64,000 nt of DNA from Gemmatimonadota bacterium (GCA_003222195.1 QHVB01000026.1:1-64000); one strand, 5' to 3'; positions 12,069-32,815 are shown, counted from the first letter of the stretch. Made by a program: numbers and translations. Notes: a model not told the origin generated them from the letters alone.

Positions 12069-12075
12069 TGGTGAT

Positions 12076-16807: not shown

Positions 16808-16828
16808 GGCGACTCTACGGAGTGCGCT

Positions 16829-18994: not shown

Positions 18995-19066
18995 AGCTGA
19001 TGGAACGATCGGGAAGTTGAGAACAAGCTTCGCACGTGCTCTCAACACCCGCAGGGCCCCCGTGCG

Positions 19067-19199
19067 GCCTAACCTGCGCTTGAAGCTGGCGGCGCCCGCC
19101 CTCAAAGGATCCGGTGGACCCTCTGAACCGCGGTGTATTAGCATTCCGTTTGTGAACTTTCACATTCTGCGACCGCAGTTTAAGCGCCATCCGTTAGGC
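19067..19199 (+). repeat. attC site (133 bp, class C)
   Basis: R'' GCCTAAC 19067-19073, R' GTTAGGC 19193-19199. Left arm GCGCTTGAAGCTGGCGGCGCC; right arm GACCGCAGTTTAAGCGCC is slightly diverged. Confidence 0.9.
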
Positions 19200-19231
19200 C
19201 GCACGCGAATACGCGAGGAGGCACCATCGCC

Positions 19232-19732
19232 ATGAACAGAGCCCACTACGGGGCCGTGGCAGCCGGGGCCCTACTGCTAACGCTTCCAGGGTCGCTTCGC
19301 CAGGAGCCGACGAATCCTGCGGCCGCCGTAGCAAAGGCGCCCATCATGGTGAGGGGGGACGAGCTGAGGTGGGAGGACTGCTCCGCTGCGATTCCTCGCG
19401 GACCCAAGTGCGCCACCCTCGAGGGCGATCGCACGGTGGCCAACGTCCCGTTCACTTACCGGCTGAAGCTACCCGACGGCTACCGCGTTCCGCCACACGT
19501 CCACCCAGCCGACGGGCACCTCACCGTCATCGCCGGCACGCTTAACATGGGTTGGGGCGACAAATTCGACGTGAAGGCAACCAAACCTATGCCGGCCGGA
19601 AGTTTCATCGTCATCCCGAGAGGAGCTCGCCATTTTTATTGGGCTCAGGGCGAGACGATCGTCCAGTCGCACGGCATTGGCCCCTGGGGGGTGACCTACG
19701 TCAATCCTGCGGATGACCCGAGGAAGAGGTAG
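19232..19732 (+). CDS. Secreted cupin-domain protein
   Basis: A 166-residue protein with a signal peptide (AVAAGALLLTLPGSLRQ). The cupin core is YRLKLPDGYRVPPHVHPADG then HLTVIAGTLNMGWG (motif 1 with G-x-x-x-P-x-H-x-H-P) and IVIPRGARHFYWA (motif 2, P-x-x-x-x-H). The three metal-ligand histidines are present. The C-terminus GPWGVTYVNPADDPRKR matches the downstream paralogue. The ATG at 19232 follows GAGGAGGC. Its attC is reduced to the right core at 19731-19747. Confidence 0.88.
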   Translation: MNRAHYGAVAAGALLLTLPGSLRQEPTNPAAAVAKAPIMVRGDELRWEDCSAAIPRGPKCATLEGDRTVANVPFTYRLKLPDGYRVPPHVHPADGHLTVIAGTLNMGWGDKFDVKATKPMPAGSFIVIPRGARHFYWAQGETIVQSHGIGPWGVTYVNPADDPRKR

Positions 19733-19747
19733 CGCAATCCGTTAGGC
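19731..19747 (+). repeat. attC fragment: right end only
   Basis: GCGCAATCC followed by GTTAGGC (19741-19747) directly abuts the cupin stop codon. The R'' core, left arm and loop are missing, so the two cupin cassettes are now fused. Confidence 0.85.
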
Positions 19748-19850
19748 GGCGCTGCGGCCTCCCGTCAGTGCGATGGTGCATCGCCCCTCTTCCGGCCGTC
19801 TGTCCGCCGCCCGATCTTGGGGGCACCACTCACGATCCCTCGGAGATCCT

Positions 19851-20318
19851 ATGCGCATCCTCACCGTCCCGGCGTGCCTCATGCTCATGGCCGCCTCCCC
19901 ACTTCACTCCCAGGCCGCACCTCAGGCCACGCCGAGCGCGCCGCACTGGGGCTCGGCCCCGGCGGTCTTTCCCCCGGGCGCCAGGATGGCCGTGCTGAGC
20001 GGTGACCCCGCTAAGGCGGCGCCGTTCACGGTCGAACTCGCCTTCCCAGCCGGCTACAAGATCCCGCCCCACTTCCATCCCACGACGGAGACGGTCACGG
20101 TCAAGAAAGGGACGCTCCTCGTCGGCATGGGGGATACCTTCGATGCCTCGAAGGCCAAGCCGATGCAGGTCGGCGACTCGGGGTCCATCCCGGCGAACGC
20201 CCACCACTTCGCCGCCGCGAAGGTTCCCACGTTCATTACGGTGGGCGCGATGGGTCCATTTGCAATGACGTACGTCCACGCAGCGGACGATCCTCAAAAG
20301 GCGGCGGCCAAGCCGTAG
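19851..20318 (+). CDS. Secreted cupin-domain protein (paralogue)
   Basis: A 155-residue protein; ATG 19851 starts a signal peptide (MRILTVPACLMLMAASPLHSQA). The cupin motifs GYKIPPHFHPTTETVTVKKG and SIPANAHHFAAAK are present, ending GPFAMTYVHAADDPQKAA. It aligns over the whole mature part with the preceding cupin (shared GY+xPPHxHP, GTL, GD+FD, KPM, GP, TYV, ADDP), so the pair are paralogues from one lineage of cassettes. Probable periplasmic metal-binding protein; substrate unknown. Confidence 0.87.
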   Translation: MRILTVPACLMLMAASPLHSQAAPQATPSAPHWGSAPAVFPPGARMAVLSGDPAKAAPFTVELAFPAGYKIPPHFHPTTETVTVKKGTLLVGMGDTFDASKAKPMQVGDSGSIPANAHHFAAAKVPTFITVGAMGPFAMTYVHAADDPQKAAAKP

Positions 20319-20333
20319 CATGTGGGGGGCGCC

Positions 20334-20421
20334 GCCTAACAAGCGCCTGAAGCTGCCGGCGCACGTAGATAAGGAAGAGAAGCCTAGTGTGGCGCCGCTG
20401 CTTAGGCGCAGTCCGTTAGGC
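20334..20421 (+). repeat. attC site (88 bp), last near-complete one
   Basis: R'' GCCTAAC 20334-20340, R' GTTAGGC 20415-20421; arms GCGCCTGAAGCTGCCGGCGC and GTGGCGCCGCTGCTTAGGCGC; shorter loop than other sites. Confidence 0.93.
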
Positions 20422-20447
20422 GGCGCCTCCAAGTGCCGAGGTCATTT

Positions 20448-21077
20448 ATGCAGATACATTCTTCGTTCATCAGGCTCGCGATCATTGCGCTCGTTGTCTT
20501 TGTCCCTTCGCGAGTTGTTAGTCAGACGCGCGTCGAGGGTGGACCGCTCCTCGGCCTGTACTCACCCGCTGGCAGCTTTCAGCCTGCGCCGTACTACTCA
20601 ACGGCTCTGCCGAATGCCCCTAGCGCGCTCACCGGCGCGGCGATGGGAGGCCAAGGACGCATCTGGTTCAGCCGACGGCTCGGTCTACAGCTGCAGGTCG
20701 CTTGGGCGTCCAGTAGGGTGGGCGGAGGCAATACTCCAGCGGGCACCGCACCCAGCACGCCGGCTAGCGTCCTGACGTCAAGTGTCCAGGCTCTCTTTGT
20801 TCTCTCTCACCCATCTCAACGGATTCAGCTCTGGCTCAGTGCGGGGCCGGGACTGGTGCGTCATGGCGGCGAAGCCTACGCCCGGTATGGCTCGCCGGTC
20901 CAACTGGCAACCACTCTGGGGTTTGGTTCAGCCATTCCGATGGGGAGCCATCTGAGCCTCAACCTGGGAGCGACCACGTTTCTGTACAACATTGACGTCG
21001 CTGACAGTGCGGGCACCAGCCTTGAGCATGGGTTTCAGGTGGACCCGTTATTTCATCTTGGGCTTAGCGTTCGCTGA
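20448..21077 (+). CDS. Outer-membrane beta-barrel protein
   Basis: A 209-residue protein; ATG 20448 lies six bases after GAGG and is preferred to GTG 20433. Signal peptide MQIHSSFIRLAIIALVVFVPSRVVSQ. The mature part alternates short amphipathic strands with turns (RVEGGPLLGLYSPAG, MGGQGRIWFSRRLGLQLQVAWAS, IQLWLSAGPGLVRHG, HLSLNLGATTFLYNI) and ends LFHLGLSVR, an alternating pattern with penultimate valine as in barrel C-termini. Likely 8-stranded OMP of unknown function. Confidence 0.8.
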   Translation: MQIHSSFIRLAIIALVVFVPSRVVSQTRVEGGPLLGLYSPAGSFQPAPYYSTALPNAPSALTGAAMGGQGRIWFSRRLGLQLQVAWASSRVGGGNTPAGTAPSTPASVLTSSVQALFVLSHPSQRIQLWLSAGPGLVRHGGEAYARYGSPVQLATTLGFGSAIPMGSHLSLNLGATTFLYNIDVADSAGTSLEHGFQVDPLFHLGLSVR

Positions 21078-21177
21078 CGTCAGGTCGAGTGGCGCGCGTC
21101 ATGAGAAACAACAAGCCATCGATAATGATCTTGCGTCGGCTTGGGGGTTGGCGTTTTGGCTCGGATTCCTCCCTACA

Positions 21178-21246
21178 CGTACCCGAAGCTGCCCAACGGT
21201 TGGCTTGCGAGGCATGACCCCTTAGCTTAGGCCAACGTCGTCAGGC
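21178..21246 (+). repeat. attC relic, degenerate
   Basis: Fragments CGAAGCTG, TTAGCTTAGG and a right core GTCAGGC (21240-21246) sit where an attC is expected between two cassette genes. The R'' core is gone and the arms no longer pair well. Confidence 0.55.
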
Positions 21247-21259
21247 TGCGTCTAGGCAC

Positions 21260-22042
21260 ATGTCACCTCTAGCCGTTCGCGTCGGTGCGGGCGTCCTCGC
21301 GCTCCTCGCTCTTATCGCCCTGCGCGGCAAGAGTTGGGCCTACCTCGCATTCGTCGTGCTCGGGCTGCTCTATTTTCCCGCGCAAACCCACTTCCGCGTG
21401 CACGCCCCGAAGTGCGAGCAGCTCCTTCCCACGATTCAGGTGCTCGTCCTCTCGCTGCACGACTACGCGCACATCGCGCTGTTCGCCGGCTTCTACTGGA
21501 TGTCGTGGGTACAGTTCCGGAGGTCTGGCGCGCGCAGCGTCTGGGCGCTCCTCGCGACGCTGCTCGTGGGAGCCCTCGTCGAGATCGCCGAGGGCATGAC
21601 GGGGCGGGGACATTGCCGCGTGCGGGATCTCGTACCGGACGCCGCGGGGGCGTTGGGCGCGGCGCTGCTGCTCGCTGTCTGGTCCCGGCTCCGCCGGAAA
21701 CCGGCCTACGTCAGACTCGTCAGGCCTCACGCAGCGGCCGCTCGACTCCCGGCCGCGCCCACCGCCCGTGCTGTCGTTCCTCCGCGCGGTGTCGTTCCGC
21801 CCCCGCCCCCCCGGGGTCTACCGGGGCTGTACGTACCTCCGCCCCCTCCCCCGGACTTTTCACCGGGCCCAAGCCCTGTCACGCCAGCGGCGGACTTGGC
21901 TCCGACGCAGGAGGTCGCGCCGAAGGGGGGCGCGGCGATCGCGGCGCGTGCAGCGGTCGTGCAACGCCTGCAGGCGATGCTGGGACGTCTCAGGGAAATG
22001 TTAGAACGCCTGTGGGTGACCATACGTGGACGTCGCCGCTGA
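21260..22042 (+). CDS. VanZ-like membrane protein with proline-rich tail
   Basis: A 260-residue protein. The first 135 residues hold four helices (VGAGVLALLALIAL, WAYLAFVVLGLLYFPA, AHIALFAGFYWMSWV, LLATLLVGALVEIAEG) and the VanZ-like end VEIAEGMTGRGHCRVRDLV then PDAAGALGAALL. A long Ala/Pro linker with two runs of six or so prolines (VVPPPPPRG and YVPPPPPPDF) leads to a C-terminal basic helix (RLQAMLGRLREMLERL). VanZ-like proteins are integral membrane proteins; VanZ itself affects teicoplanin resistance by an unknown mechanism. The C-rich DNA tract at 21800-21860 reflects the proline runs. Confidence 0.8.
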   Translation: MSPLAVRVGAGVLALLALIALRGKSWAYLAFVVLGLLYFPAQTHFRVHAPKCEQLLPTIQVLVLSLHDYAHIALFAGFYWMSWVQFRRSGARSVWALLATLLVGALVEIAEGMTGRGHCRVRDLVPDAAGALGAALLLAVWSRLRRKPAYVRLVRPHAAAARLPAAPTARAVVPPRGVVPPPPPRGLPGLYVPPPPPPDFSPGPSPVTPAADLAPTQEVAPKGGAAIAARAAVVQRLQAMLGRLREMLERLWVTIRGRRR

Positions 22043-22171
22043 GACACTGGTGCGCGCGCGCGAGTCGTTCTGTTCGGCCCGCGACTGGTCTTCAGACTCC
22101 GTCACGTTCGTTCCGGCGCTCCAGCCCGTTAACCTGGGCACAATCACGTTGCGGCCGATTCGATAGGCGCC

Positions 22172-22229
22172 GCCTGACAAGCGGCTGAAGCTGACGGCGC
22201 CCGTCGCGTGCTTCTGCATCCCGTTCATA
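22172..22229 (+). repeat. attC relic with internal deletion
   Basis: A mutated R'' (GCCTGAC, 22172-22178) and good left arm (GCGGCTGAAGCTGACGGCGCCCGTC) run straight into GCATCCC-GTTCATA (22223-22229), where the right core is damaged; the loop and right arm are deleted. Confidence 0.75.
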
Positions 22230-22297
22230 TCCCTAGTGGGATTCCGATATCCCGGTACATTCGTGCGACACGTACTTCTACCAACGCGGGAGGTCGT

Positions 22298-22822
22298 ATG
22301 CGCCAAAGGACTTTTTCACTCGGATTCGTGCCGGTCGCTTCGTTCCTCGTCGCGTGCGCCGAGCCTCAGCTGACGGCACCTGCGAATGTCGCTAACCTGG
22401 CTGCCTCGGCTCAGCAGCTCGCGGCACCACCGGCCTGCGAGCACGTGAGTGGGGCGTTTGTTTTTACGACATTTCAGTTCACAAGCCAGACGACCGCCGT
22501 CGGCGCCGGCACATTGCTGGGGGACCTGTCCGGGCGATTTAGCGCCGAGTACTTCGATATCCAGCAGCGGGGCAGCGGTGTAATCCACATGCTGGCCCAT
22601 CACACGATGACGAGGAGCACCGGGACGATCAGGACGTCCGACGAGATCTTGCTTCTCCCAGATCAGGATCCAGCCGTGGGCCGACCCAATTCGCGCCTGG
22701 ACGTGATCGGCGGAACGGGTGCGTATGACGGAGCGACAGGCCTCCTCCACACCCACGGTCAACTGAACCTCGCAACGCTGGCTGGGTCTCTCCAGTATAG
22801 GGGACAGGTTTGCGTCCCGTGA
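22298..22822 (+). CDS. Lipoprotein, possibly DUF3224/allene-oxide-cyclase-barrel-like
   Basis: ATG 22298 follows GGGAGG. The 174-residue product has a lipoprotein signal (SLGFVPVASFLVACAEPQ, Cys near residue 18). The mature domain ends with SRLDVIGGTGAYDGATGLLHTHG, and the G-G-T-G-x-Y-x-G-A-x-G motif is typical of small beta barrels such as DUF3224, dirigent-like and allene-oxide-cyclase-like proteins. The following cassette (23029) encodes a clear DUF3224 protein. Start, signal and motif are clear; the family placement is a suggestion. Confidence 0.72.
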   Translation: MRQRTFSLGFVPVASFLVACAEPQLTAPANVANLAASAQQLAAPPACEHVSGAFVFTTFQFTSQTTAVGAGTLLGDLSGRFSAEYFDIQQRGSGVIHMLAHHTMTRSTGTIRTSDEILLLPDQDPAVGRPNSRLDVIGGTGAYDGATGLLHTHGQLNLATLAGSLQYRGQVCVP

Positions 22823-22861
22823 ACCACGCAGGTGTAGGACTGAGAGGCCACCGGGAGCGCT

Positions 22862-22948
22862 GCTTAAGCGCTTGACGCTGACGGCGCGCGTAGATTGAGG
22901 AATGAGTCTTTCTTCAGCGCGCCGCAGCTTAGGCGCACTCCGTTAGGC
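22862..22948 (+). repeat. attC site (87 bp, class A) with damaged R''
   Basis: The left core reads GCTTAAG (22862-22868) instead of GCCTAAC, as if a two-base deletion joined R'' to the arm; R' GTTAGGC (22942-22948), loop and right arm are normal. Confidence 0.88.
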
Positions 22949-23028
22949 AGCGCCACTCAATCGCATTTGGCGCCTGCAGACTGTAGCCTCGGAAATCCTG
23001 TTTCCGATCACCTGGCCGAGGGAGAAAC

Positions 23029-23427
23029 ATGAAGAACGTTGCGAACTCCCGATTCACCATCAAGAGCTGGGACGAGAAGACTTATGGTGAAGGCCAGGGC
23101 CTACCAAAGCTGACTCGGGCCGCCGTCACAAAGTCGTTCAGCGGCGATATCGCGGGCGAAGGTCACGTCGAATACTTGATGATGTACCGCAGCGACGGCT
23201 CGGCCACGTTCGTCGGCATCGAGCGGTTCGTCGGGCACATTGCAGGGAAAGCGGGCAGCTTTGTGCTCCAACGCATGGGAGTATTCGAGAACGGCGTGGC
23301 GAAGGAGTCCTATTCCGTCATCCCTGGCTCCGGAACCGGAGAGCTTCGAGGCCTGCGCGGCGAGGGCACCTCGGGCGTTGGGCACGGGACTGAGCATCCT
23401 CTAACATTGCAATATGAGTTGGAATAG
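23029..23427 (+). CDS. DUF3224 family protein
   Basis: A 132-residue soluble protein. It matches DUF3224 throughout: FTIKSWDEKTYGE, LTRAAVTKSFSGDIAGEGHV, YLMMYRSDGSATFVGIERFV, GHIAGKAGSFVLQRMGVFE, and the closing VIPGSGTGELRGLRGEG. The fold is a small beta barrel; no enzymatic role is established. ATG 23029 follows GGGAGAAAC. It has no signal peptide, unlike many array neighbours. Confidence 0.9.
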   Translation: MKNVANSRFTIKSWDEKTYGEGQGLPKLTRAAVTKSFSGDIAGEGHVEYLMMYRSDGSATFVGIERFVGHIAGKAGSFVLQRMGVFENGVAKESYSVIPGSGTGELRGLRGEGTSGVGHGTEHPLTLQYELE

Positions 23428-23473
23428 CTTGGCGCCGTTCAGATCCTCCATCTAAAGCGCAACAAACACCTCC

Positions 23474-23638
23474 ATGAAAACAGTCTTCTGCAAGCTCATT
23501 CCGCCTCGTCCCACCTTTCCACAGGATATGTCGCCGGCCGAAGCCAAGCTGATGCAGGATCATGCGGCGTACTGGAGAGCGGGCGCGGGGTTCCGAGTCT
23601 ATATCACGAAGTACGCTGCAGTAGAATTGCGTTTGTGA
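23474..23638 (+). pseudogene. YciI-like gene remnant with internal deletion
   Basis: ATG 23474 opens MKTVFCKLIPPRPTFPQDM, SPAEAKLMQDHAAYWR, a good YciI-like N-terminus (VFCKLIPPRPTF and HAAYWR are typical). It then jumps to AGAGFRVYITKY, which resembles the family's far C-terminus, and runs into attC loop sequence (AVELRL) to stop at 23638. The expected middle (about 45 residues, including the conserved D-P and catalytic-like His/Asp region) is missing. No complete attC separates it from the DUF3224 gene upstream. Confidence 0.72.
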
Positions 23639-23663
23639 ACCTCCTAGGCACACTCCGTTAGGC
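23612..23663 (+). repeat. attC relic: loop and right core
   Basis: CAGTAGAATTGCGTTTGTGAA is not quoted in full here; the class B loop block starts at 23619, then TAGGCACACTCC and R' GTTAGGC (23657-23663). Left half and much of the right arm are missing. Confidence 0.82.
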
Positions 23664-23668
23664 AGCCA

Positions 23669-23959
23669 ATGTCGGCACTACTCGTCTTATCAGAAGCGCG
23701 TATTGCTCAGGAGATTCGGCAGGCGGAGGAAGTCATGGTTGCCGCAGCCCAGTGGCGTCGCGCGTGGCGCCGGCGGGTGTTTTTCCTGACGCTCCGTTGC
23801 GCCGCCATCTACGCGGTTGGTGGCGCGCTCGCATGGGCGAGTCTCGGTCTGACGGGCGACGCTGCTCAGATCGCCTTGTGGAGCGGTTTGCTCCTGAGTA
23901 ACGCGGGGCCGGCTCTATTCGCTTATGCGTTTTGGATGCGTGAGCAGGGCAGTTGGTGA
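23669..23959 (+). CDS. Small two-helix membrane protein
   Basis: A 96-residue protein starting ATG six bases after the attC core. An amphipathic, charged N-terminal helix (EARIAQEIRQAEEVMVAAAQWRR is not quoted whole; it spans residues 9-31) precedes two transmembrane helices, about residues 38-59 (FLTLRCAAIYAVGGALAWAS) and 66-89 (IALWSGLLLSNAGPALFAYA). No family recognised. Single-gene cassette. Confidence 0.7.
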   Translation: MSALLVLSEARIAQEIRQAEEVMVAAAQWRRAWRRRVFFLTLRCAAIYAVGGALAWASLGLTGDAAQIALWSGLLLSNAGPALFAYAFWMREQGSW

Positions 23960-23981
23960 ATTCTCGCGATCTAGGTCGGCT

Positions 23982-24083
23982 GCCGAACACGCGCCTGAAG
24001 CTGACGGCGCCCGTCGGCTGTGGTAAACTTGTGTTTATGAACTGTCCAGCACGGCGCCGCAGCTTAGGCGCACCACGTTAACC
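23982..24083 (+). repeat. attC site (102 bp, class B) with both cores mutated
   Basis: Left core GCCGAAC (23982-23988) and right core GTTAACC (24077-24083); arms and loop (GTGGTAAACTTG) still class B. Likely poorly recombinogenic. Confidence 0.88.
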
Positions 24084-24102
24084 TGCTGAACTGTGACCGA
24101 CT

Positions 24103-24549
24103 ATGCCTTCAATCTTTGACCCTGGAGTTCGGGCTGCGATTTTGGATCGGATCGCCCGACTGACACCCGAGCGCAAGCCGGTCTGGGGTCGATTCACGGC
24201 GCCGGAAATGGTGTGTCATATAAGCTGCGATCTGCGGCAGGGGCTCGGTGAGCTCGAGGCCGGTCCACCATCCGGACCTCTGGCGCGTTTTCCACTGAAT
24301 TGGCTCGCGATTCACGTCCTACCATGGCCGAAAGGGAAAGGGAAAAGCCCGCCTGAGTTCCTCGCGACCCGTCCTACCACCTGGGCGGCCGACGTAGGTC
24401 GACTGCGCGAGCTGATTCAGCGCTTCGGGGCGCGTGGCCCGGCCGCAGCCTGGCCGGCGAGCCGGGTCTTTGGATCCATTTCCGGGCCGAGCTGGGGTGC
24501 CATGGAGTACAAGCATCTGGATCATCATTTGCGTCAGTTTGGTGTGTGA
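24103..24549 (+). CDS. DUF1569 (DinB-like) protein
   Basis: A 148-residue helical protein. It has the DUF1569 signature: W-x-R-F-T-A-P-E-M-V-C-H-I (residues 29-41), the proline-rich PWPKGKGKSPPEF, and the C-terminal FGSISGPSWGAMEYKHLDHHL with the HxxHHLRQF end (YKHLDHHLRQFGV). Histidines at about 39, 139 and 143 could form the DinB-type metal triad. DinB-like proteins are four-helix bundles, often thiol-dependent transferases. Start ATG 24103. Confidence 0.87.
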   Translation: MPSIFDPGVRAAILDRIARLTPERKPVWGRFTAPEMVCHISCDLRQGLGELEAGPPSGPLARFPLNWLAIHVLPWPKGKGKSPPEFLATRPTTWAADVGRLRELIQRFGARGPAAAWPASRVFGSISGPSWGAMEYKHLDHHLRQFGV

Positions 24550-24586
24550 GCCGGTGCCGTGCGCCGTTTTGCTGTTGTCGTCTTCT

Positions 24587-24637
24587 AGTTGTGAATATTC
24601 CAATCAGGCGCCGCAGCGTAGGCGCACCCCGTTAGAC
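24587..24637 (+). repeat. attC relic: right half
   Basis: GTTGTGAATATTCC, AGGCGCCGCAGCGTAGGCGC and R' GTTAGAC (24631-24637) are the right half of a class B site; no R'' is found upstream. Confidence 0.83.
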
Positions 24638-24653
24638 CGCCCCACGGGCCTCA

Positions 24654-24953
24654 ATGCACGTCATGCTTGAAGCGATGGACAAGGAACCCAGCCTCCGGGC
24701 AATTTGGGCCGGTGCCGCCGTGCTAGGACTGGTCGGCTACGCGGCCGTGCGCTTTCGACGCTGGCTGGTTCTCCCAGCGCTAGCCCTCATCGCGGTGGCG
24801 GCTTGGACGCAGCTCGGCGATCTCCTCGACCCACAGGTCGGCCCGGCCATCATGCAGCAGGCGGGTCGGTGGTACGTTGGACAAGCGGGCGCGGCTGTCG
24901 CTTTGGCCGTGATCCTGTGCGTGCTGGGCCTGGCTCCGAGGCGTGCGGTCTAA
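24654..24953 (+). CDS. Small membrane protein (99 aa)
   Basis: Starts ATG 24654 (24663 and 24669 are alternative ATGs in frame). Three hydrophobic segments: AIWAGAAVLGLVGYAAVRF, WLVLPALALIAVAAWTQLG and AGAAVALAVILCVLGLAP. No family recognised. The TAA stop is in a GTCTAAC core that is otherwise without an attC. Confidence 0.7.
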   Translation: MHVMLEAMDKEPSLRAIWAGAAVLGLVGYAAVRFRRWLVLPALALIAVAAWTQLGDLLDPQVGPAIMQQAGRWYVGQAGAAVALAVILCVLGLAPRRAV

Positions 24954-24960
24954 CAAGTGC
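24948..24960 (+). repeat. attC relic: R'' core only
   Basis: GTCTAAC plus AAGTGC is all that remains; the next gene's GTG start (24957) lies inside it. Confidence 0.75.
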
Positions 24961-25415
24961 ATCATCTCCTCCTCCTGCTCGGGACATTCGCCTTCTGCGT
25001 GGGCAGCGCCGTAATTCCAGTGTTGCACGCCGAGACGTATCTGATCACCGCCTCGCTACTCGCACCGCCGGAGCTCCGCTGGCTCCTGGTCATCGCGGCT
25101 ACCAGCGGTCAGATGCTCGGCAAGGTCGGCATGTACTACGCCGGGCGGGGTATGAAGCTGATTCCGGGCGAACGCATGCAGCGTCGGATCCAGTTGGCGG
25201 CGGCGCGATACGGCGACAAGCGACAGATCGGCAACGCCTTGGTGTTCGTGAGTGCGACGTCGGGGTTCCCGCCGTTCTATCTCGTGAGCATCGCGGCGGG
25301 CATGCTCACATTCCCACTCATGCCGTTCATCATCTTCGGCGTCGCCGGTCGCTTGATCCGGTTCGCGGTGGCCGTCTTCCTTCCTCACTGGGGAATGGCA
25401 GCAACCGCGGCGTGA
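24957..25415 (+). CDS. DedA/VTT-like membrane protein
   Basis: A 152-residue protein beginning GTG 24957 within an attC remnant. It carries AVIPVLHAETYLITASLL, then an amphipathic re-entrant region with VIAATSGQMLGKVGMYYAGR, and NALVFVSATSGFPPFYLVSI AAGM-type glycine-rich helices, the pattern of the VTT (DedA/SNARE-associated) domain: acidic E in a P...E start, G-x-x-x-G and F/Y-x-x-G-R. VTT proteins include flippases and scramblases for lipid carriers. The frame may have lost an N-terminal helix when the attC was deleted. Confidence 0.72.
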   Translation: MHHLLLLLGTFAFCVGSAVIPVLHAETYLITASLLAPPELRWLLVIAATSGQMLGKVGMYYAGRGMKLIPGERMQRRIQLAAARYGDKRQIGNALVFVSATSGFPPFYLVSIAAGMLTFPLMPFIIFGVAGRLIRFAVAVFLPHWGMAATAA

Positions 25416-25432
25416 GTTTGGGTGAAGCCGCT

Positions 25433-25464
25433 GCCTAACATGCGCCTGAAGCTGACGGCGCCCG
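25433..25464 (+). repeat. attC relic: left half
   Basis: R'' GCCTAAC (25433-25439) followed by TGCGCCTGAAGCTGACGGCGCCC; the loop and right half are missing and the next gene starts 20 bases later. Confidence 0.85.
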
Positions 25465-25483
25465 GTCTCTGAGGAATTTCACA

Positions 25484-27580
25484 ATGAGACTCCAGCGCAC
25501 CACAAGCGCCTTCATCGCCTCCGTCTGTCTGGTTGCGGGATCACGAGCGTTCGCTCAAACAGCTGACTCGGGCTGGGTCGGACAGCGCATCGTCATGCTG
25601 AGCGGCATGGGGGAGGTGCACAGTCCGCTTGATAGCATGCAGGTCGCATCTCAAGTTGGCATCAATCTGGTCATGCCGGTCACGCGGGTTGAAGGACGGC
25701 GATTGTGGGTTGTTTCGACAAGCGGGGGCGACTCGGGGTGGGTGGACAGTGACGCAGTGCGTCGACTGCCTGAGGCAATTCCGTACTTCACGCACCTGAT
25801 CGAACGCGAGCCAAGCAATTGGGATGCGTACCTCCGTCGAGCGGAGGCCGAGCATGCCCTGAATCAGCGAGACGCAGCCACGGCGGACTACAGCAAAGCG
25901 ATCGAGCTTCATCCGGCCGAGGCGTTTCTCTATCTGCGGCGTGGAAGGCACTACAACAGCCTGCGTGCCTGCGACCGGGCGCTGAGCGACTTCGATAAGG
26001 CCATCACGCTCGCGCCGACCTCGGCGCCCCAGGGCTACAATCTCGTGGTCGAGCTGTACAGCCTCGAGTCTAGTGTCTATTCCGGGTGCGCAGATTCCAC
26101 GCTTCGGGATCCCCGGCGCGCTATTGCCACAATTCAGCACGCCATCGCGCTTGATTCCACTCGGGCCACGTTCTTCGTGATTCTTGCCGGTGCGTATGCC
26201 AGCGGTGGCAATCTCACCGCTGCGGTTGACGCATTGAAGCGCGCGCTGGCATCTCCTGGGGCGGCACCGTCGTATCGCCCGTATTGGCAACGGCAGCTTG
26301 ATGAGTACGAGCGGGCGTTGGCGACACAGAGGGTGAAGCGACAAGGCTCGTCGGCGTCCGACAGTGCAATGGCGCTCAATCGCACGGGACGCTGGTCCGA
26401 GGCTGCCGATCAGGCCCGTCGCTACCTCGCGTCGGCACGGCTCGGATCGCGGGACGAAAGCTGCCGCGTGCGAGTCATGCTCGCATACTCGGAAATGCAG
26501 CTTGTGCACCAAGACAGTGCCAACGCCGTGCTCGCTAGCGCCGATTCTACCTGCGAAGGCACTAGGGCAAAGGAAGAGATGGCCCACGATCTCGCGCAGT
26601 TGCATCGAAACGTGCCCGGCCTGGCCAGGCTAGGCGCGTCGCCGAGCTCCGATGGATCCTGGGCAACCGGAGATCCTCGAACCCTCGGTCTGAATGTTAG
26701 AGCGCTTGAAGGTCACCTGAGTATCTGCGAGAGGACTGGGGCCGACGCGTGCTTGGTGGTTTATCGCGATACGATTGTCCAGGAGTGGTATTCACCACGT
26801 TATCGAGAACCGATGTACGCGATGTCGTCGACAAAGTCCATCACCGCATTGTTGGTTGGCATGCTGCTCGACGAGGGACGGCTCAAGAGCCTCGATGACC
26901 GCGTCTGCACCTACGTGCGTAACTGGTGCGATGGCCTTCGGGCACGTGTCACCTTGCGTCACCTCCTCAGCATGACTTCAGGGCTTCCCCGCATGTACGC
27001 AAATGGTGTTGGCTACACGAGTGACAAAGACAAATTCGTCGAGGATCTGACTCCGACGAATGAGCCGGGCAGTTCGTGGGCGTACAGCAATGAAGGGGCA
27101 CAACTCCTGTCTCCCATCCTCGATGCGGCGGCGGGTGAACCGATTCAAGACTACGCCCTTCGCCGACTCTTCCGTCCACTCGGGATGGACCACACGCGGC
27201 TACACGCGGATGGGAAGGGCCACGCCTGGACCTATGCGGACGCGGAGACCACACCGCGCGATCTCGCGCGTCTGGGGCGCTTGATCCTCCACAAGGGACT
27301 GTCAGACGGCAGGCGGATCGTCAGTCAAGCCTGGATCGAGACCGCCACACAACCATCGCAACAGATGAACCCCCGCTATGGCTTGCTGTGGTGGATCGAT
27401 CCCGAGGCGAAGGCGATCGCCATGCACGGTCATCTTGATACGGACGTGCACATCCTGCCGGATCTCGCTTTGGTGGTGGTACGAATGCAGACAAGGCCCT
27501 TCGCCGGCGTGCCCGAGGGGACATACGAGCGCGAAGCTGTTCCTCTATATAGAGAATTCGTTGCGCGCGAGGCCCATTGA
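25484..27580 (+). CDS. Secreted TPR - beta-lactamase-fold serine hydrolase fusion
   Basis: A 698-residue protein, the largest cassette gene. Signal peptide about residues 1-25; an SH3-like beta region (residues 30-90, WVGQRIVML ... GGDSGWVDSDAV); TPR repeats from about 95 to 310 (NWDAYLRRAEAEHALNQRD, ATADYSKAIELHP, LYLRRGRHYNSL, AVDALKRALASPG); then a class C beta-lactamase/DD-peptidase-like domain from about 410 with S448-S-T-K451 as SxxK, Y534-S-N536 and the C-terminal MHGHLDT block near 650. The family includes esterases and peptidases. The TPR part may bind a partner. ATG 25484 follows GAGG. Confidence 0.87.
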   Translation: MRLQRTTSAFIASVCLVAGSRAFAQTADSGWVGQRIVMLSGMGEVHSPLDSMQVASQVGINLVMPVTRVEGRRLWVVSTSGGDSGWVDSDAVRRLPEAIPYFTHLIEREPSNWDAYLRRAEAEHALNQRDAATADYSKAIELHPAEAFLYLRRGRHYNSLRACDRALSDFDKAITLAPTSAPQGYNLVVELYSLESSVYSGCADSTLRDPRRAIATIQHAIALDSTRATFFVILAGAYASGGNLTAAVDALKRALASPGAAPSYRPYWQRQLDEYERALATQRVKRQGSSASDSAMALNRTGRWSEAADQARRYLASARLGSRDESCRVRVMLAYSEMQLVHQDSANAVLASADSTCEGTRAKEEMAHDLAQLHRNVPGLARLGASPSSDGSWATGDPRTLGLNVRALEGHLSICERTGADACLVVYRDTIVQEWYSPRYREPMYAMSSTKSITALLVGMLLDEGRLKSLDDRVCTYVRNWCDGLRARVTLRHLLSMTSGLPRMYANGVGYTSDKDKFVEDLTPTNEPGSSWAYSNEGAQLLSPILDAAAGEPIQDYALRRLFRPLGMDHTRLHADGKGHAWTYADAETTPRDLARLGRLILHKGLSDGRRIVSQAWIETATQPSQQMNPRYGLLWWIDPEAKAIAMHGHLDTDVHILPDLALVVVRMQTRPFAGVPEGTYEREAVPLYREFVAREAH

Positions 27581-27780
27581 TACTCAATGGTGCTGGCAAC
27601 CAGACCCGCTTCCTTCGGGTCCCGTCCGCTGATATCCTGGCGCGGCCGGATGTCGAGGCGCTGATAACCGCCGCGGTCGCTCGGTCCAAGACGCCATTTC
27701 GAGATATCGGGCGACACGTTCTGATTATCCGCTCAATATCGGCCAAGCAGCGTCCGCGTCGCAGGGCCCGTGCCGCCTAA
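27577..27780 (+). pseudogene. C-terminal fragment of a DUF1801 protein
   Basis: The frame has no ATG; a TTG at 27577 overlaps the preceding stop. It reads SADILARPDVEALITAAVAR, SKTPFRDIGRHVLIIRSISA, KQRPRR, which I recognise as the usual end of DUF1801/YdhG proteins (R-P-D/E-V-x-A-L-I-x-x-A, V-x-G-R-x-x-L-V-I-K-S-V-S-A-K-Q-R-P-R). The N-terminal two thirds are absent. The stop is in the attC core at 27775. A complete DUF1801-type protein is encoded at 55649. Confidence 0.72.
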
Positions 27781-27823
27781 CAGGCCGGGTGCGCCGCCGC
27801 ACCTTAGGCGCACTCCGTTAAGC
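27775..27823 (+). repeat. Compact attC-like site (49 bp)
   Basis: R'' GCCTAAC (27775-27781) and R' GTTAAGC (27817-27823) flank only 35 bases, with CCTTAGGCGCACTCC as the right arm. Much shorter than other sites; either a deletion product or a minimal hairpin. Confidence 0.82.
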
Positions 27824-27882
27824 GCGCCGCTCCTCTCTCCCCAACGCCGCAGCGCAAGTCCTCTACTGTAGGAGCCCCCAGT

Positions 27883-28365
27883 ATGTCCGCTCACGTCGTC
27901 ACACCTGGTGATCGGTCGCTCGCTCCATCCCCCGAGCTCGGCGCCAAGCTCGTCGCGCTCGCTGGAATCGGGCTGGTTGGCTACGGACTGATGTTCCTCA
28001 TCCGGAACTTTACCAGGTTCATTGAACTCGGCCTCACGCCGGAGCAGGTCGGCGGCACGCCCGAGCAGATCCGTGCGTTCAGCCCGCACCTCTTCTACTA
28101 TATCAGTCACCTGCAAGCAGCGGTGGCCGGTTTCCTCATCGCCCTTGGGGTCGCGGTGATTCTGCTGGCGTGGCGAGGGATTCGCGCCGGGCAGCGCTGG
28201 GCTCTGTGGACGGCACTCCTCGTGCCCGTGATTGCGCTCGCCTTCGGGTTGCCTCTGCACTACGTCTATGGCCTCGCCACCCTCGGCCATCTCGGACCCA
28301 TCTATCTCGATGTGGCTATCTTGCTTGTCGGAACCCTGCTCGCGCGGAGGGCCTTCGCGCGATGA
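27883..28365 (+). CDS. Four-helix membrane protein (160 aa)
   Basis: ATG 27883 follows TAGGAGCC. Helices at about 24-42 (VALAGIGLVGYGLMFLIRNF), 80-98 (AAVAGFLIALGVAVILLAW), 109-126 (ALLVPVIALAFGLPLHYV) and 134-153 (GPIYLDVAILLVGTLLA). A short loop between helices one and two includes the segment EQVGGTPEQIRAFSP. No family is recognised. The stop overlaps the start of the next gene (ATGA). Confidence 0.75.
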   Translation: MSAHVVTPGDRSLAPSPELGAKLVALAGIGLVGYGLMFLIRNFTRFIELGLTPEQVGGTPEQIRAFSPHLFYYISHLQAAVAGFLIALGVAVILLAWRGIRAGQRWALWTALLVPVIALAFGLPLHYVYGLATLGHLGPIYLDVAILLVGTLLARRAFAR

Positions 28366-28661
28366 ATCTCGTTCTTCAAAGCACGGATCGCGTGCTGATC
28401 GAAAGCGTTCGGCTCGCGCTCGCAGGTGAGGGCATCGAGGTCGTGCTGAATGACGAATCGGGCGCCGCCCTCCCATTCGTCCCGGTGAAGGTGCTTGTCT
28501 CGAGCGTCGACTTTAAGCGGGCTCGCGAGATTGTACGGGATCTCGTGCCCACCTCTCCATCCTCAAGCGTCCCACGTGCGAATCGCCGGTTTTGGAGCGT
28601 CGTACTTCTGGCGCTGGCGATCTTGCTGCTCATTTTCTTCGGCAACATCTTGATCGGATGA
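28362..28661 (+). CDS. DUF2007-like protein with C-terminal membrane anchor
   Basis: A 99-residue protein translated from ATG 28362, which overlaps the upstream stop. Residues 1-66 show the DUF2007 (putative signal-transducing) pattern: LVLQSTDRVLIESVRLALAG, EGIEVVLNDESGA, then VKVLVSSVDFKRAREIVRDL, an ACT-like beta-alpha-beta fold. A C-terminal helix (SVVLLALAILLLIFFGNILI) anchors it in the membrane. Co-translation with the membrane protein upstream suggests they act together. Confidence 0.78.
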   Translation: MNLVLQSTDRVLIESVRLALAGEGIEVVLNDESGAALPFVPVKVLVSSVDFKRAREIVRDLVPTSPSSSVPRANRRFWSVVLLALAILLLIFFGNILIG

Positions 28662-28668
28662 GCGCGCT

Positions 28669-28710
28669 GTCCGACAAGCGCCTGGAAGTTGGCGGCACCG
28701 GCGCCGGCTG
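28669..28710 (+). repeat. attC relic: left half
   Basis: A mutated R'' (GTCCGAC, 28669-28675), then AAGCGCCTGGAAGTTGGCGGC; the right half is missing. Confidence 0.7.
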
Positions 28711-28719
28711 CGAGTGATT

Positions 28720-28735
28720 GTTGCATTCATGCAAC
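28720..28735. promoter_or_regulatory. Near-perfect dyad, possible operator
   Basis: GTTGCAT-TC-ATGCAAC is a 7-bp perfect inverted repeat with a two-base centre, 63 bases upstream of the lipoprotein start at 28798 and just after an attC relic. Its size fits a small dimeric regulator; no regulator is identified. Confidence 0.4.
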
Positions 28736-28780
28736 GAAACTTGGATGAGGGTCGTACCGTTCAGAGCCTCCAAAGTCCAA

Positions 28781-28799
28781 ATAATGCCGGAGGCATTAT
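28781..28799 (+). promoter_or_regulatory. Hairpin enclosing ribosome-binding site and start codon
   Basis: ATAATGCC (28781-28788) and GGCATTAT (28792-28799) are perfectly complementary around a GGA loop. The Shine-Dalgarno GGAGG is 28789-28793 and the start codon is 28798-28800, so both would be held in the hairpin in the mRNA. Confidence 0.6.
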
Positions 28800-29166
28800 G
28801 ACAGCTGCTGAGAATGCTCCTGCCGTAAAGCTGGTCTCCATTGCAAGCCCTGTGGTTGTCGTCACATGTGTGTGCGCCGCGATGGGCTGTGCAAGCCTGA
28901 GGTCGGCTGCTGAGTCTGCAGGACTCGTTCCGCTCGACAGCGCTCGGGCAGTGGCGGTGGCAGAGCACAACGTCTGCGGGGACGTATCCCCGGGTGATAC
29001 GACCTGCGTGCTCCGGGGGTATCGTCGCTCTGGTGGCCGGTTTGAGATCTTGCTCGATCGGCGTCCGCCGGTGGGCAACGACCGCGTCCTTGTCGCGATA
29101 CAGGGCAATGGTTCGCGAATCGACGTGACGCCGGTCGATACGGCGTCTGCGCGGCCTCAGCGCTGA
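28798..29166 (+). CDS. Small lipoprotein
   Basis: A 122-residue product from ATG 28798, directly after GGAGG. A hydrophobic stretch (ASPVVVVTCVCAAMGCASL) ends in a lipobox-like AMGCAS, so lipidation at about residue 31 is likely. The mature part includes ALDSARAVAVAEH-type helix, a disulfide-capable pair (NVCGDVSPGDTTCVL) and strands GRFEILLDRRPPVGNDRVLV. Unknown family. Translation may be controlled by the hairpin at 28781. Confidence 0.72.
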   Translation: MTAAENAPAVKLVSIASPVVVVTCVCAAMGCASLRSAAESAGLVPLDSARAVAVAEHNVCGDVSPGDTTCVLRGYRRSGGRFEILLDRRPPVGNDRVLVAIQGNGSRIDVTPVDTASARPQR

Positions 29167-29179
29167 CCGAGAGGTTGCC

Positions 29180-29542
29180 GTGAACCAAAAGGAATTGCGG
29201 ACCACGTTCGCTCATCCTACGCCGGAGCTCCCAGTGGAGGACGTAGAGCGGGCGCAGCAGCATTACCGCGATGCGCTCGGCTTCGAGATCCGTTGGCTCT
29301 ACCCAGGAGGCGATATCGGTGCCGTCTCCCGTGACAACGTCGCGATCTTCTTTCGCAGAAGAGCGCGTCCATTCGAACCTGCCGTTCACTGGGTATTTGC
29401 GGCGGAAATCGACGCCACGTACGAGGAATTGCGCTCCCTGGGCGCCCGAATCGTGGAGCCCCTCGAGAAAAAACCCTGGGGTTTGCGTCAGTTCACCGTG
29501 GAAGATATCGATGGAAATCGCTTCTACTTTCACTGCGACTGA
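29180..29542 (+). CDS. VOC (glyoxalase/bleomycin-resistance-like) protein
   Basis: A 120-residue single VOC domain from GTG 29180. It has the typical order PELPVEDVERAQQHYRDALGF, then WLYPGGDIGAVSRDNVAIFF, VHWVFAAEIDATYEELRSLG, EKKPWGLRQFTVEDIDGNRF. The final DxxGN...F block with a Glu/His pattern suggests a metal or substrate site. VOC proteins include glyoxalases, dioxygenases and antibiotic-binding proteins; the ligand cannot be read from the sequence. Confidence 0.87.
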   Translation: MNQKELRTTFAHPTPELPVEDVERAQQHYRDALGFEIRWLYPGGDIGAVSRDNVAIFFRRRARPFEPAVHWVFAAEIDATYEELRSLGARIVEPLEKKPWGLRQFTVEDIDGNRFYFHCD

Positions 29543-29552
29543 GCGGCAGGTT

Positions 29553-29573
29553 CTTAGGCGCACTCCGCTAGAC
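29553..29573 (+). repeat. attC relic: right end
   Basis: TTAGGCGCACTCC followed by GCTAGAC (29567-29573), a mutated right core, after the VOC stop. No left part. Confidence 0.7.
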
Positions 29574-29608
29574 GGCGGCATCACTCGCAGGTATAAGGAG
29601 ACCCCGTC

Positions 29609-29674
29609 ATGTGGCTGCTCGTGATCGCCTTCGTCGGCCTTCTCGTGGGTGATGGCCTGTTCCTCTTCTCGTGA
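29609..29674 (+). CDS. Tiny membrane peptide (21 aa)
   Basis: ATG 29609 after a good TAAGGAGA site encodes MWLLVIAFVGLLVGDGLFLF then S, a single hydrophobic helix, stopping at 29674. The stop overlaps the GTG of the next gene (GTGA), so the two may be co-translated. Too short for family assignment; supported by the ribosome-binding site and by the overlap. Confidence 0.5.
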   Translation: MWLLVIAFVGLLVGDGLFLFS

Positions 29675-30021
29675 AGACATTTCCTCTATTCATCGCTGCC
29701 TGGGTCCTCGCAGGGCTCGGCGCGGTCGTGGGGTCCGTCCTTGGCAACGGTGCAGGGAAGACCGGATTGTTCGCCGGAGCAGTCATCGGAGGACTGGTCG
29801 GCATCGGTGCGGCCGTTGTGATCGCTTCCAAGCTGCGGTGGCTTCCAGGTGCTGATCGTCTGGCAGCTTTTTTGGGCGGGAGCGTTGGCTTCGCGATAGC
29901 CTCCCCGATCGCGGTGTCCAATCTCCATACTCCCATTACCCCGATACTCATCTGCGCGCTTGCTGGAGTCGGTTCGCTGCTCGGCCTCGGCGTCGCACGC
30001 GGTTGGCGGGCAAGCCGCTGA
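29671..30021 (+). CDS. Small membrane protein with glycine-rich helices
   Basis: A 116-residue product from GTG 29671. Three to four helices rich in Gly/Ala (FIAAWVLAGLGAVVGSVLG, AGAVIGGLVGIGAAVVIAS, GGSVGFAIASPIAV, LICALAGVGSLLGLGVA). Glycine-zipper-like spacing suggests tight helix packing. No family assigned. Last gene before the end of the array. Confidence 0.68.
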   Translation: MKTFPLFIAAWVLAGLGAVVGSVLGNGAGKTGLFAGAVIGGLVGIGAAVVIASKLRWLPGADRLAAFLGGSVGFAIASPIAVSNLHTPITPILICALAGVGSLLGLGVARGWRASR

Positions 30022-30039
30022 CGAAATCTTGGTCCGTCG

Positions 30040-30076
30040 CTAGCGCCCGAAGGTGTCGGCGGGCGTAGATTGACGG
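30040..30076 (+). repeat. attC relic at the array/chromosome junction
   Basis: GCTAGCGCCCGAAGGTGTCGG and GGGCGTAGATTGACGG follow the left-arm order of class A sites (GCGCTTGAAGCTGGCGG, GCGCGTAGATTGAGG). It abuts the rhamnosidase ATG; nothing like it occurs beyond. Confidence 0.65.
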
Positions 30077-32815
30077 ATGCGGCACATCCTGATCGGCGCT
30101 CTGACGGCCCTTGCACCGGCGCAGGTATTCGCTCAGGTCACGGTCGCTGGACTGCGCGTCGAGTACCTCACCAGCCCCATCGGCATCGACGTGGCGCAGC
30201 CGCGCCTGAGCTGGCGAATCGAAAGCAACCGGCGCAACACGGTGCAGGCGGCCTATCAGCTGCAGGTCGCGACCGGCGAAACGAGCCTCGTGCGCGGCGC
30301 GAACCTGCTGTGGGATTCCGGGAAGATCGCCTCGGATGCATCGGTATTCGTGAACTACGGCGGTCCGCCCGCGCTGTCGCGGACACGCTATTACTGGCGC
30401 GTGCGCGCCTGGGACGCGGGCAGCGGGGCGTCTCCCTGGAGCGCGCCGGCGTTCTGGGAAACAGGACTGCTGCAACCCGCCGACTGGACCGCGCAGTGGA
30501 TCGGCCCGCAACAAACCACGACGGATAGCCTGCCAGCTCCGTCGCCATTATTGCGACGGTCCTTCCGTGTCGACGACCGCGTGCGTTCCGCGCGTCTCTA
30601 CGTCACGAGCCTCGGCCTCTACGAGGTCTATCTCAACGGACAACGGGTCGGCGACCAGCTCTTCGCGCCCGGCTGGACCTCATACCGCCGGCGGCTGCAG
30701 TACCAGACCTACGATGTGGCCTCGCTGCTGCGACCGGGCGCCAACGCCGTCGGCGCGATGCTGGGCGATGGCTGGTATCGGGGAAATCTCGGGTTCTTCG
30801 GCCAACGCAATCTCTATGGCCGGCGGCTGGCCCTGCGCGCGCAGCTCGAGATCCGCTATGAGAGCGGACGCACCGCGCGCGTGGTGACGGACACCGCCTG
30901 GCGGATGACGCCGGGACCGGTGCTCGCGTCGGACATCTATGGCGGCGAAACTTACGACGCGCGGCGAGAGCTTGGCGGCTGGGTGAGCGCGCCCTTCGAC
31001 GACCACGCATGGAGCGCGGTTGCGCTGCTCGATCCGCCGGCGGCTGCGCTCGTGGCGTCCCTGTCGCCACCAGTGCGGCGCGTGCGCGAGCTGCGCCCGG
31101 TGAGCATCCGTCGCGCGCCGTCGGGTGAAACGCTGTTCGATTTGGGGCAAAACTTCACTGGTTGGGCCCGTCTCAGCGTCCAAGGGCAGGCCGGCACGAC
31201 GGTGACACTCCGCTTCGGCGAGGTCCTCGACCGCGACGGCAATCTTTACACCGCCAATCTGCGTGCCGCGGCTCAGACGGACCGCTACACCCTCGGTGGA
31301 AAATCGCGGGAAGTATACGAGCCGCATTTCACATTTCACGGTTTTCGCTATGTGGCGGCCCGAGGACTTCCCGCTCCGCCGGACTCGACGACGATCACGG
31401 GCATCGCCGTGTCATCCGACCTCGCGCAGACGGGAAGCCTGCTGACCTCCGACTCGCTGCTGAATCAGCTGCAGCGCAACATCGTCTGGGGTCAGCGCAG
31501 CAACTTTCTCGATGTGCCGACCGACTGCCCGCAGCGCGACGAGCGCCTGGGATGGACAGGCGATGCCCAGGTGTTCGCGCGGACCGCGGCATTCAACATG
31601 GACGTCAACGGCTTCTTCGCGAAGTGGCTCGCCGATGTCGCAGCCGATCAGGACCCGAGCGGCAGCGTCCCGTGGGTGATCCCGAATCCCCTGGGGGGCG
31701 ACTCTGTCCGCTTCGCGGGCACCGCCGGTTGGTCCGACGTCGCCGTCATCATCCCCTGGACGATGTACCTCACGTACGGCGACCGGCGCCTGCTCGAGCG
31801 GCAATATCCGAGCATGCGCGCGTGGGTTGATTACGCGCGCCGCCGGGCGGGCACAGATATGATCTGGAGACCGGGATGGCAGTTCGGCGATTGGCTCGCG
31901 CTGCACAGCGACGATCCGTCCTACCCCGGTGCGACGACGGGCACAGACCTGATCGCGACGGCGTTCCTGGCCCATTCCACCGATCTGGTCGCGCGGGCGG
32001 CGGCAGTGCTCGGGCGCGCAGACGATGCAGCCGCCTATCATGAGCGCTTCCGCGCGATCCGCGAGGCGTTTGACCGGGAGTTCGTGTCGCGTACGGGCCG
32101 AGTGGGCGAGAACACGCAGACGGCGTACGCACTGGCGATCGCGTTCGATCTCCTGCCCGATTCACTGGTTCCGGCTGCTGCCGGCCGACTCGCTCGGGAC
32201 GTGGAAGCGCGCGACCACCACCTTACGACTGGGTTCCTCGGGACGCCGTACCTCCTGCACGTGCTCGCCGGAAGTGGGCACATCGAGGACGCGTTCGCGT
32301 TGCTGACGCAACGCACCTATCCGTCGTGGCTGTATCCGATCACGCGCGGGGCGACGACGATGTGGGAGCGGTGGGATGGCATTCGGCCCGACAGCTCGTT
32401 CGAAGATCCTGGGATGAATTCGTTCAATCACTATGCATTCGGCGCGGTCGGCGACTGGATGTATCGGAATATCGGCGGCATCGATGTCGATTCTGCAGGG
32501 CCGGGGTATCGACGGTCACGCATCGCGCCGCGGCCGGGAGCGGGCCTGACGAGCGCGAGCGCGTCCCTCGAGACCGGGTACGGGACGCTGTCTTCCGCGT
32601 GGCGACTCGATGGAAAGCGATTCGTCCTCGATGTCACCATTCCGGCGAACACATCGGCGGAAGTGACTTTGTGGGACGCTCGCCTGGATCAGGTTCGGGA
32701 GGGGAGTGCGCCCATCAACGCGAGCGCCGGTGTGCGCGGCGCGCGGCAGCGCGGCAAGGATGTCGTCGTTGAGCTCGGTTCGGGGCGGTATAGTTTGGCG
32801 GTGCCGGCTCCGTAG
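30077..32815 (+). CDS. Alpha-L-rhamnosidase, GH78 family
   Basis: A 912-residue secreted enzyme that removes terminal L-rhamnose from glycosides and pectin-like polymers by an inverting mechanism. Signal peptide RHILIGALTALAPAQVFAQ; N-terminal Fn3-like and jelly-roll domains (VAGLRVEYLTSPIGID, LFAPGWTSYRRRLQYQTYDV); then the (alpha/alpha)6 barrel with the hallmark DCPQRDERLGWTGDAQ (D483 onward, the catalytic acid region) and TMWERWDG with E764. The C-terminal beta sandwich ends LGSGRYSLAV. First core gene to the right of the integron; its ATG lies in attC-derived sequence, so the true promoter may be lost or new. Confidence 0.95.
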   Translation: MRHILIGALTALAPAQVFAQVTVAGLRVEYLTSPIGIDVAQPRLSWRIESNRRNTVQAAYQLQVATGETSLVRGANLLWDSGKIASDASVFVNYGGPPALSRTRYYWRVRAWDAGSGASPWSAPAFWETGLLQPADWTAQWIGPQQTTTDSLPAPSPLLRRSFRVDDRVRSARLYVTSLGLYEVYLNGQRVGDQLFAPGWTSYRRRLQYQTYDVASLLRPGANAVGAMLGDGWYRGNLGFFGQRNLYGRRLALRAQLEIRYESGRTARVVTDTAWRMTPGPVLASDIYGGETYDARRELGGWVSAPFDDHAWSAVALLDPPAAALVASLSPPVRRVRELRPVSIRRAPSGETLFDLGQNFTGWARLSVQGQAGTTVTLRFGEVLDRDGNLYTANLRAAAQTDRYTLGGKSREVYEPHFTFHGFRYVAARGLPAPPDSTTITGIAVSSDLAQTGSLLTSDSLLNQLQRNIVWGQRSNFLDVPTDCPQRDERLGWTGDAQVFARTAAFNMDVNGFFAKWLADVAADQDPSGSVPWVIPNPLGGDSVRFAGTAGWSDVAVIIPWTMYLTYGDRRLLERQYPSMRAWVDYARRRAGTDMIWRPGWQFGDWLALHSDDPSYPGATTGTDLIATAFLAHSTDLVARAAAVLGRADDAAAYHERFRAIREAFDREFVSRTGRVGENTQTAYALAIAFDLLPDSLVPAAAGRLARDVEARDHHLTTGFLGTPYLLHVLAGSGHIEDAFALLTQRTYPSWLYPITRGATTMWERWDGIRPDSSFEDPGMNSFNHYAFGAVGDWMYRNIGGIDVDSAGPGYRRSRIAPRPGAGLTSASASLETGYGTLSSAWRLDGKRFVLDVTIPANTSAEVTLWDARLDQVREGSAPINASAGVRGARQRGKDVVVELGSGRYSLAVPAP

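Follow-up and report, generated by a model that had tools for sequence, protein, structure and literature searches.

Stepwise erosion of attC sites at the integrase-distal end of a chromosomal integron in a Gemmatimonadota bacterium

Sedentary chromosomal integrons, such as the Vibrio superintegron and those of Xanthomonas and Treponema, have an integrase gene (intI) at one end of a long array of cassettes that lie on a single strand and carry highly similar attC sites, which fold as bottom-strand DNA. Here we describe an integron that resembles them in all these traits, the integrase-distal part of which lies in a 64,000-nucleotide stretch of a Gemmatimonadota bacterium (GCA_003222195.1, QHVB01000026.1:1-64000; hereafter the window). 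It differs from them in that the distal 10 kb do not hold a single fully intact site and in that intI is frameshifted and co-directional with the cassettes. Integron remnants that persist after loss of intI have been reported in Treponema phagedenis (PMC3607928), and arrays with no integrase gene nearby have been defined as clusters of attC sites lacking integrases (CALIN) (PMC8618304). Like these, our locus contains attC sites and cassettes, seemingly without a working integrase, and its counterpart in the sister genome (G009) fits the description; unlike them, the decayed part is here still attached to an intact array and to a recent intI pseudogene, located on contig C80, which we join to the contig of the window. 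In a class 1 integron, partial loss of attC locks the neighboring cassettes blaGES-1 and aacA4 together (PMC4670013), whereas in our case two reading frames have merged within a chromosomal array. Inactivation by frameshift has been described for intI1 (PMC3510236), as seen here from species comparison and not from experiment. In the literature, covered mostly without subscription papers, we found no account of a stepwise eroded distal end with intermediates in sister species. The element is of a known kind, and the evidence for erosion of its old end is unusually complete.

The window comprises positions 1-64000 of contig C95 of a 3.5-Mb genome in 95 contigs (G000), which we compared with the rest of the ten genomes of the genus (G000 to G009) and with outgroup metagenome-assembled genomes (MAGs); the named relatives are soil Gemmatimonadetes MAGs. 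The attC sites did not match any Rfam family, so a purpose-built model was needed, and a comparison with plasmids gave no match either. We used one position weight matrix per attC arm, trained on 21 sites outside the window (on contigs C80, C43, and C67 of the same genome and in two relatives), with a threshold that yields zero matches in 123 kb of control DNA, and a covariance model (R1), likewise trained outside the window. As R1 fits eight order-level relatives poorly (best match of 64 bits and none in three of the eight genomes), the trend was examined within the genus only. Remnants were counted in window positions 1-32000, with left and right sides divided at 20.43 kb.

The arm scan of this region gave 64 matches on the plus strand and 0 on the minus strand. 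All cassettes share one strand and have their attC 3' of the gene, and each site reads from R'' (GCCTAAC) to R' (GTTAGGC). Both arms are present in 26 of the 27 sites on the left side (the exception is 19731), and both arms plus both cores, with R'' as RYYYAAC, R' as GTTRRRY, and foldable arms, in 25, compared with none of the 11 remnants on the right (Fisher p = 6e-8). The covariance model scores the left sites at 58 to 113 bits, save for an odd long site (2019) at 21, and the right ones at 81, 67, 21, 15, or nothing. When folded as bottom-strand DNA, the two cores pair in every left site (5 to 7 pairs) and do not pair in most right ones. An earlier note on this DNA had described the sites right of 20.4 kb as half-deleted or mutated in their cores, and this description holds. 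Its details need some correction: the arms of the 26 left sites are as stated, while the cores are intact in one site fewer; 23982 and 24077 are the two cores of a single site; 24948 is just a 10-nt match; and 27775, listed for its lost loop, retains both cores within 49 nt, most of its loop and of both arms being gone.

The loss of site quality takes the form of a step near 19.7 kb and not of a gradient. The best break in a changepoint analysis falls at site 19731 (residual sums of squares of 23553 for a step, 29244 for a line, and 56351 for a flat model). The covariance scoring against position that the note had proposed does confirm a decay toward the distal end, with a rank correlation of -0.62 over all sites (p = 5e-5), which would suit a continuous age gradient in which distance from the attachment site attI reflects insertion time and site quality falls steadily. 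We consider this gradient very unlikely, as the scores are without trend over the first 19.7 kb (rho of -0.14, p of 0.5), the step describes the scores better than the line, damaged sites adjoin intI as well, and synonymous divergence (dS) does not rise with distance.

The locus has well-defined borders. The integrase gene is found on contig C80 directly after rtcB and is followed by about 10 attC sites, which, together with the orientation of the sites, places the attI side to the left of the window. The rtcB-intI order recurs in G002 and G003, where the intI frame is open. In two outgroup MAGs, rtcB and mazG lie tail to tail and their matched parts are separated by 6 and 92 bp, a junction that represents the empty integron site; the integron thus has a fixed chromosomal position, the rtcB-mazG locus in the genus with an empty site in the outgroups. 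From these flanks across the genus and outgroups, it follows that C80 and C95 are the two ends of one locus, and a duplicated NTF2-like cassette bridges them (the end of C80 is identical to 7556-7650, and window 1-196 to 7919-8114). A single integron thus occupies the interval between rtcB and mazG, two convergent genes, and the window holds its integrase-distal part. In G009, a single contig contains rtcB, an intI-free eroded array of 8 kb, the rhamnosidase gene, and a right flank that is 91% identical. Between rtcB and the right flank there are 3.7 kb in G007 and 1.66 kb in G008, the latter holding a lone R' scar (CATCCGTTAGGC).

Most of the eroded sites lack one arm, and in the best-resolved cases the break adjoins a gene. 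What remains at 25433 is the left arm with the loop, which reach to 5 nt before the next ATG in a clear junction, and G008 has an intact site before that gene; at 19731 and 29553, the right arm begins at a stop codon. The attC upstream of the 24654 gene is broken in four different ways in G000, G001, G004, and G008. The clear junction at 30034 leaves a half-site common to G000 and G009, which is therefore older than their split, and beside it a gene that is intact in G009 has been deleted in G000 except for its last 18 nt (the final codons). The half-sites thus appear to be deletion scars that end at adjoining start or stop codons. With ratios of nonsynonymous to synonymous divergence (dN/dS) of 0.09-0.45, the distal genes are under purifying selection, and the scars are those expected of deletions around selected genes. 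A single deletion, which removed a stop codon and an entire attC together with the signal peptide encoded downstream, left a 698-aa fusion of a TPR protein and a beta-lactamase-fold protein that was found only in G000 among the ten genomes; the two genes are separate in G008. The proposal that the distal cassettes are becoming fixed chromosomal genes is partly supported by the dN/dS values and by erosion that halts at start and stop codons: some once-mobile genes seem to be ordinary chromosomal genes now, but fixed is too strong a word for all of them, as G009 keeps just 3 of 14.

Comparison with the sister species supports an old and a young layer and not a clock. G009, the closest relative, has the distal genes 24957, 28362, and 29671 in the same order at 87-92% identity, and the dS of two of these three is 0.19-0.28, against 0.15-0.45 for core genes. 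Shared order, shared half-site, and dS near that of the core indicate that this distal layer predates the G000-G009 split. G001 also keeps the order 24103-24654-24957. No cassette from left of 20 kb was found in place in the rtcB-mazG locus of G009; the few left cassettes that also occur in G009 or G008 are located elsewhere and differ in order or spacing, and one of them (13787) has a dS of 0.045, far below the core. Among the relatives, we counted 98 complete and 11 half sites inside arrays versus 4 and 7 at distal-type ends (p = 1e-4), these ends being three contigs (G007:C55, G009:C59, and G002:C55) picked after the pattern had been seen, so that the count is support and not a blind test. 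G004:C190 and G008:C5 also resemble array ends, although this is only suggestive, and the sites of G008:C5 are mostly intact up to the last one.

The abrupt step and the G009 locus, which holds the eroded segment only, would also be expected if the right segment had never been in the array but were plain chromosomal DNA, or an older attC cluster of separate origin, linked to it through a large deletion or off-target cassette insertions, and small separate clusters do exist in G000 on C67 and C87. However, genes and remnants are all on the strand of the array, the segment is within the rtcB and mazG borders, and homologs of some distal genes are found in intact arrays of relatives (23029 in G001:C228 and the N-terminal half of 25484 in G008:C5), which makes such an origin unlikely.

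The integrase gene adjoining the array is of the integron type, with its match to TIGR02249 on C80 split over three frames. Compared with G002 and G003, it has a 7-nt deletion and one extra G in a run of G, i.e., two frameshifts. The remaining sequence has a dN/dS of 0.10-0.12 against the intact orthologs, so the loss seems to be recent, and its dS against G002 is close to that of core genes. G009 has a different intI with a 22-nt deletion. We infer that integrase activity has been lost in G000 and that the gene of G009 is inactive as well; with intI frameshifted, the whole array of G000 is probably frozen. Site decay could be a consequence of integrase death and not of position, in line with both of these damaged genes and with the T. 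phagedenis remnants. Yet integrase death would expose all sites at once, and the left ones are nearly intact, while the low dN/dS points to a recent loss; we find this cause most improbable, although a variant in which intI died twice may hold. A GTTAGAC core seen 5' of the first cassette open reading frame (ORF) marks a candidate attI. As has been reported for Treponema (PMC3607928), the intI gene (L005:6419-7349, minus strand) is co-directional with the cassettes and not divergent, as is usual. A homolog of the first cassette ORF beside intI in G000 (L005:5900-6230, minus strand) lies within the distal, eroded stretch of G009 (L014:6337-6666). In G006 (L063-L073; 97% complete genome), there are 112 attC model matches and no integron integrase at E <= 1e-30.

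The likely explanation is thus a two-layer integron, with an old distal layer that is eroding, a young layer added later, and an integrase that has since been frameshifted. The old layer (about 20-30 kb) would have been present before G000 and its sister G009 diverged. Its attC sites, seemingly no longer maintained, erode through changed bases in the cores and, for the most part, through short deletions in which one arm is lost, which may arise by slippage or illegitimate recombination at hairpin sites. Such deletions end at a start or stop codon of the adjoining gene, the genes being kept by purifying selection. Old-layer genes could then no longer be excised singly, and these deletions have also removed some of them and fused others. 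The intact sites belong to the young layer (contig C80 plus window positions 1-20 kb), which the integrase would have built afterward at attI; the integrase gene later gained two frameshifts, with the probable result that this layer, too, is frozen.

Several observations weigh against this explanation. The two sides do not differ in dS relative to core (median ratio of 0.44 on the left versus 0.55 on the right, p of 0.3). Several distal genes have a dS far below the core against G001, G004, or G008 and must therefore have still moved after those splits, and the 3 of 14 distal genes in place in G009 indicate high turnover there too. Two sites next to the integrase are damaged (L005:3588-3674 lacks R', and L005:1696-1785 has GTTAGCA as R'). 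All assemblies are fragmented and MAG-like, G009 being just 75% complete; the C80-C95 join comes from a repeat plus synteny and not from a single contig; C43, with 3.7 kb of cassettes, is unplaced; and the distal-end placement of a contig relies on attC strand and contig layout. The view that distal cassettes are older keeps the order and the 30034 scar shared with G009 in its favor, but not dS relative to core, which we tried as an age measure and which is alike on both sides. With the step, the flat dS, and the later movement of distal genes, a simple map of cassette age by distance from the integrase was not adopted.

Coordinates of the features of the locus (window positions; L-half and R-half, sites reduced to the left or right arm)
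Position	Strand	Feature	Basis or comparison
1..20421	+	Cassette array with 26 complete attC, putative young layer	Arm scan and covariance model R1
94, 665, 1310, 2019, 2692, 3958, 4496, 5616, 6195, 6793, 7472, 8012, 8620		attC starts of this layer, first half	
9560, 10218, 10776, 11581, 12076, 12575, 13662, 14631, 15762, 16431, 16829, 19067, 20334		attC starts of this layer, second half	
1..196	+	3' end of NTF2-like cassette	Same sequence as 7919-8114; 5' end supplied by the end of C80 (L005:1-187), joining C80 to C95
10218..10307	+	attC left of the step, both arms, R' core mutated to GCTAGAC	
19718..19747 (site 19731)	+	Apparent R-half attC scar immediately 3' of stop codon, position of the step	
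22172..22205	+	L-half attC, R'' changed to GCCTGAC	
22859..22948	+	attC, both arms, R'' destroyed (GCTTAAG), 81 bits	
23612..23663	+	R-half attC, just loop and R' core	
23982..24083	+	attC, both arms, both cores mutated (GCCGAAC, GTTAACC)	
24554..24637	+	R-half attC with intact R' core GTTAGAC, 21 bits	
24654..24953	+	Small cassette-type gene, dN/dS 0.22-0.39	
24947..24957	+	R'' stub GTCTAACAAG, 10-nt match overlapping stop codon of 24654-24953, weak on its own	
24957..25415	+	VTT-domain gene	Collinear with G009, 87% nt identity, and with G001
25433..25483	+	L-half attC ending 5 nt before ATG of next gene; GAGGA 8 nt from ATG	Comparison with G008 L047
25484..27580	+	698-aa TPR and beta-lactamase-fold protein, in-frame fusion, junction near 26345	
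27775..27823	+	49-nt attC, both cores kept, most of both arms and loop gone	
28362..28661	+	DUF2007 gene	Collinear with G009, 90% nt identity
28669..28703	+	L-half attC, core GTCCGAC	
29544..29573 (site 29553)	+	R-half attC immediately 3' of stop codon, with GCTAGAC as mutated R'	
29671..30021	+	Membrane-protein gene	Collinear with G009, 92% nt identity
30034..30079	+	L-half attC plus loop, with the rhamnosidase ATG at its end	Scar shared with G009
30077..32815	+	Alpha-L-rhamnosidase, 912 aa, last gene within the locus	
32826..33599	-	mazG, right border of the integron locus	Abuts rtcB in integron-free outgroups

The last gene of the locus, which codes for the rhamnosidase, has no attC 3' of it; homologs occur in most of the genus and were found between rtcB and mazG in G000 and G009 only. 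A further matrix match at 29250 falls within a glyoxalase-type gene and was rejected as chance.

The attC loop of the genus contains a conserved TAGAWT (TAGATT or TAGAAT) followed by ATG or GTG. From this start, the frame is open to a TAG in R' in 98 of 99 sites, with a length of 14 codons in 85 of them. In some half-sites, the loop start codon or an AAGGA/GAGGA motif lies exactly at the start of the downstream gene, as in the rhamnosidase gene 30077 (G000 and G009), the 24654 homologs (G008 and G004), and a hydrolase gene of G008. Half-sites might be kept as gene starts, with loops supplying start codons, although we regard this as doubtful, since similarity among the sites accounts for part of the pattern and ordinary genes do not display the spacing of the loops. 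If true, erosion would give each fixed cassette gene its own initiation signal from the recombination site. Selection on the encoded minipeptide was ruled out, as second codon positions vary. A leaderless promoter in the loop was not adopted and is kept as a lead, since TANNNT at long ORFs outside arrays is enriched about 9 to 10 nt before the start versus 5 to 7 nt in the loops; a sigma-70 scan gave 9 matches versus 5.1 expected.

Other cassettes and clusters were also observed. The left part of the window codes for an Arr family protein (6972-7433; rifampin ADP-ribosyltransferase, PF12120, E of 9e-46) in this integron of a soil Gemmatimonadota. One cassette, present in many relatives, contains the overlapping ORFs 16541-16837 (minus) and 16559-16807 (plus); the plus frame has a dN/dS of <0.15 in most comparisons, and the minus frame looks like its shadow. 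Two more small attC clusters are found in G000 (L007:9969-14323 and L008:1795-3430), the one on C87 consisting mostly of half-sites.

Integrons are often credited with supplying genes that become permanent, while the intermediate stages are seldom displayed. Across the genus and its outgroups, this one locus presents an empty site, an array beside an intact intI, a two-layer array, a fully eroded relic, and a near-empty scar, so that the steps from mobile cassette to fixed gene, fusion included, can be compared species by species.

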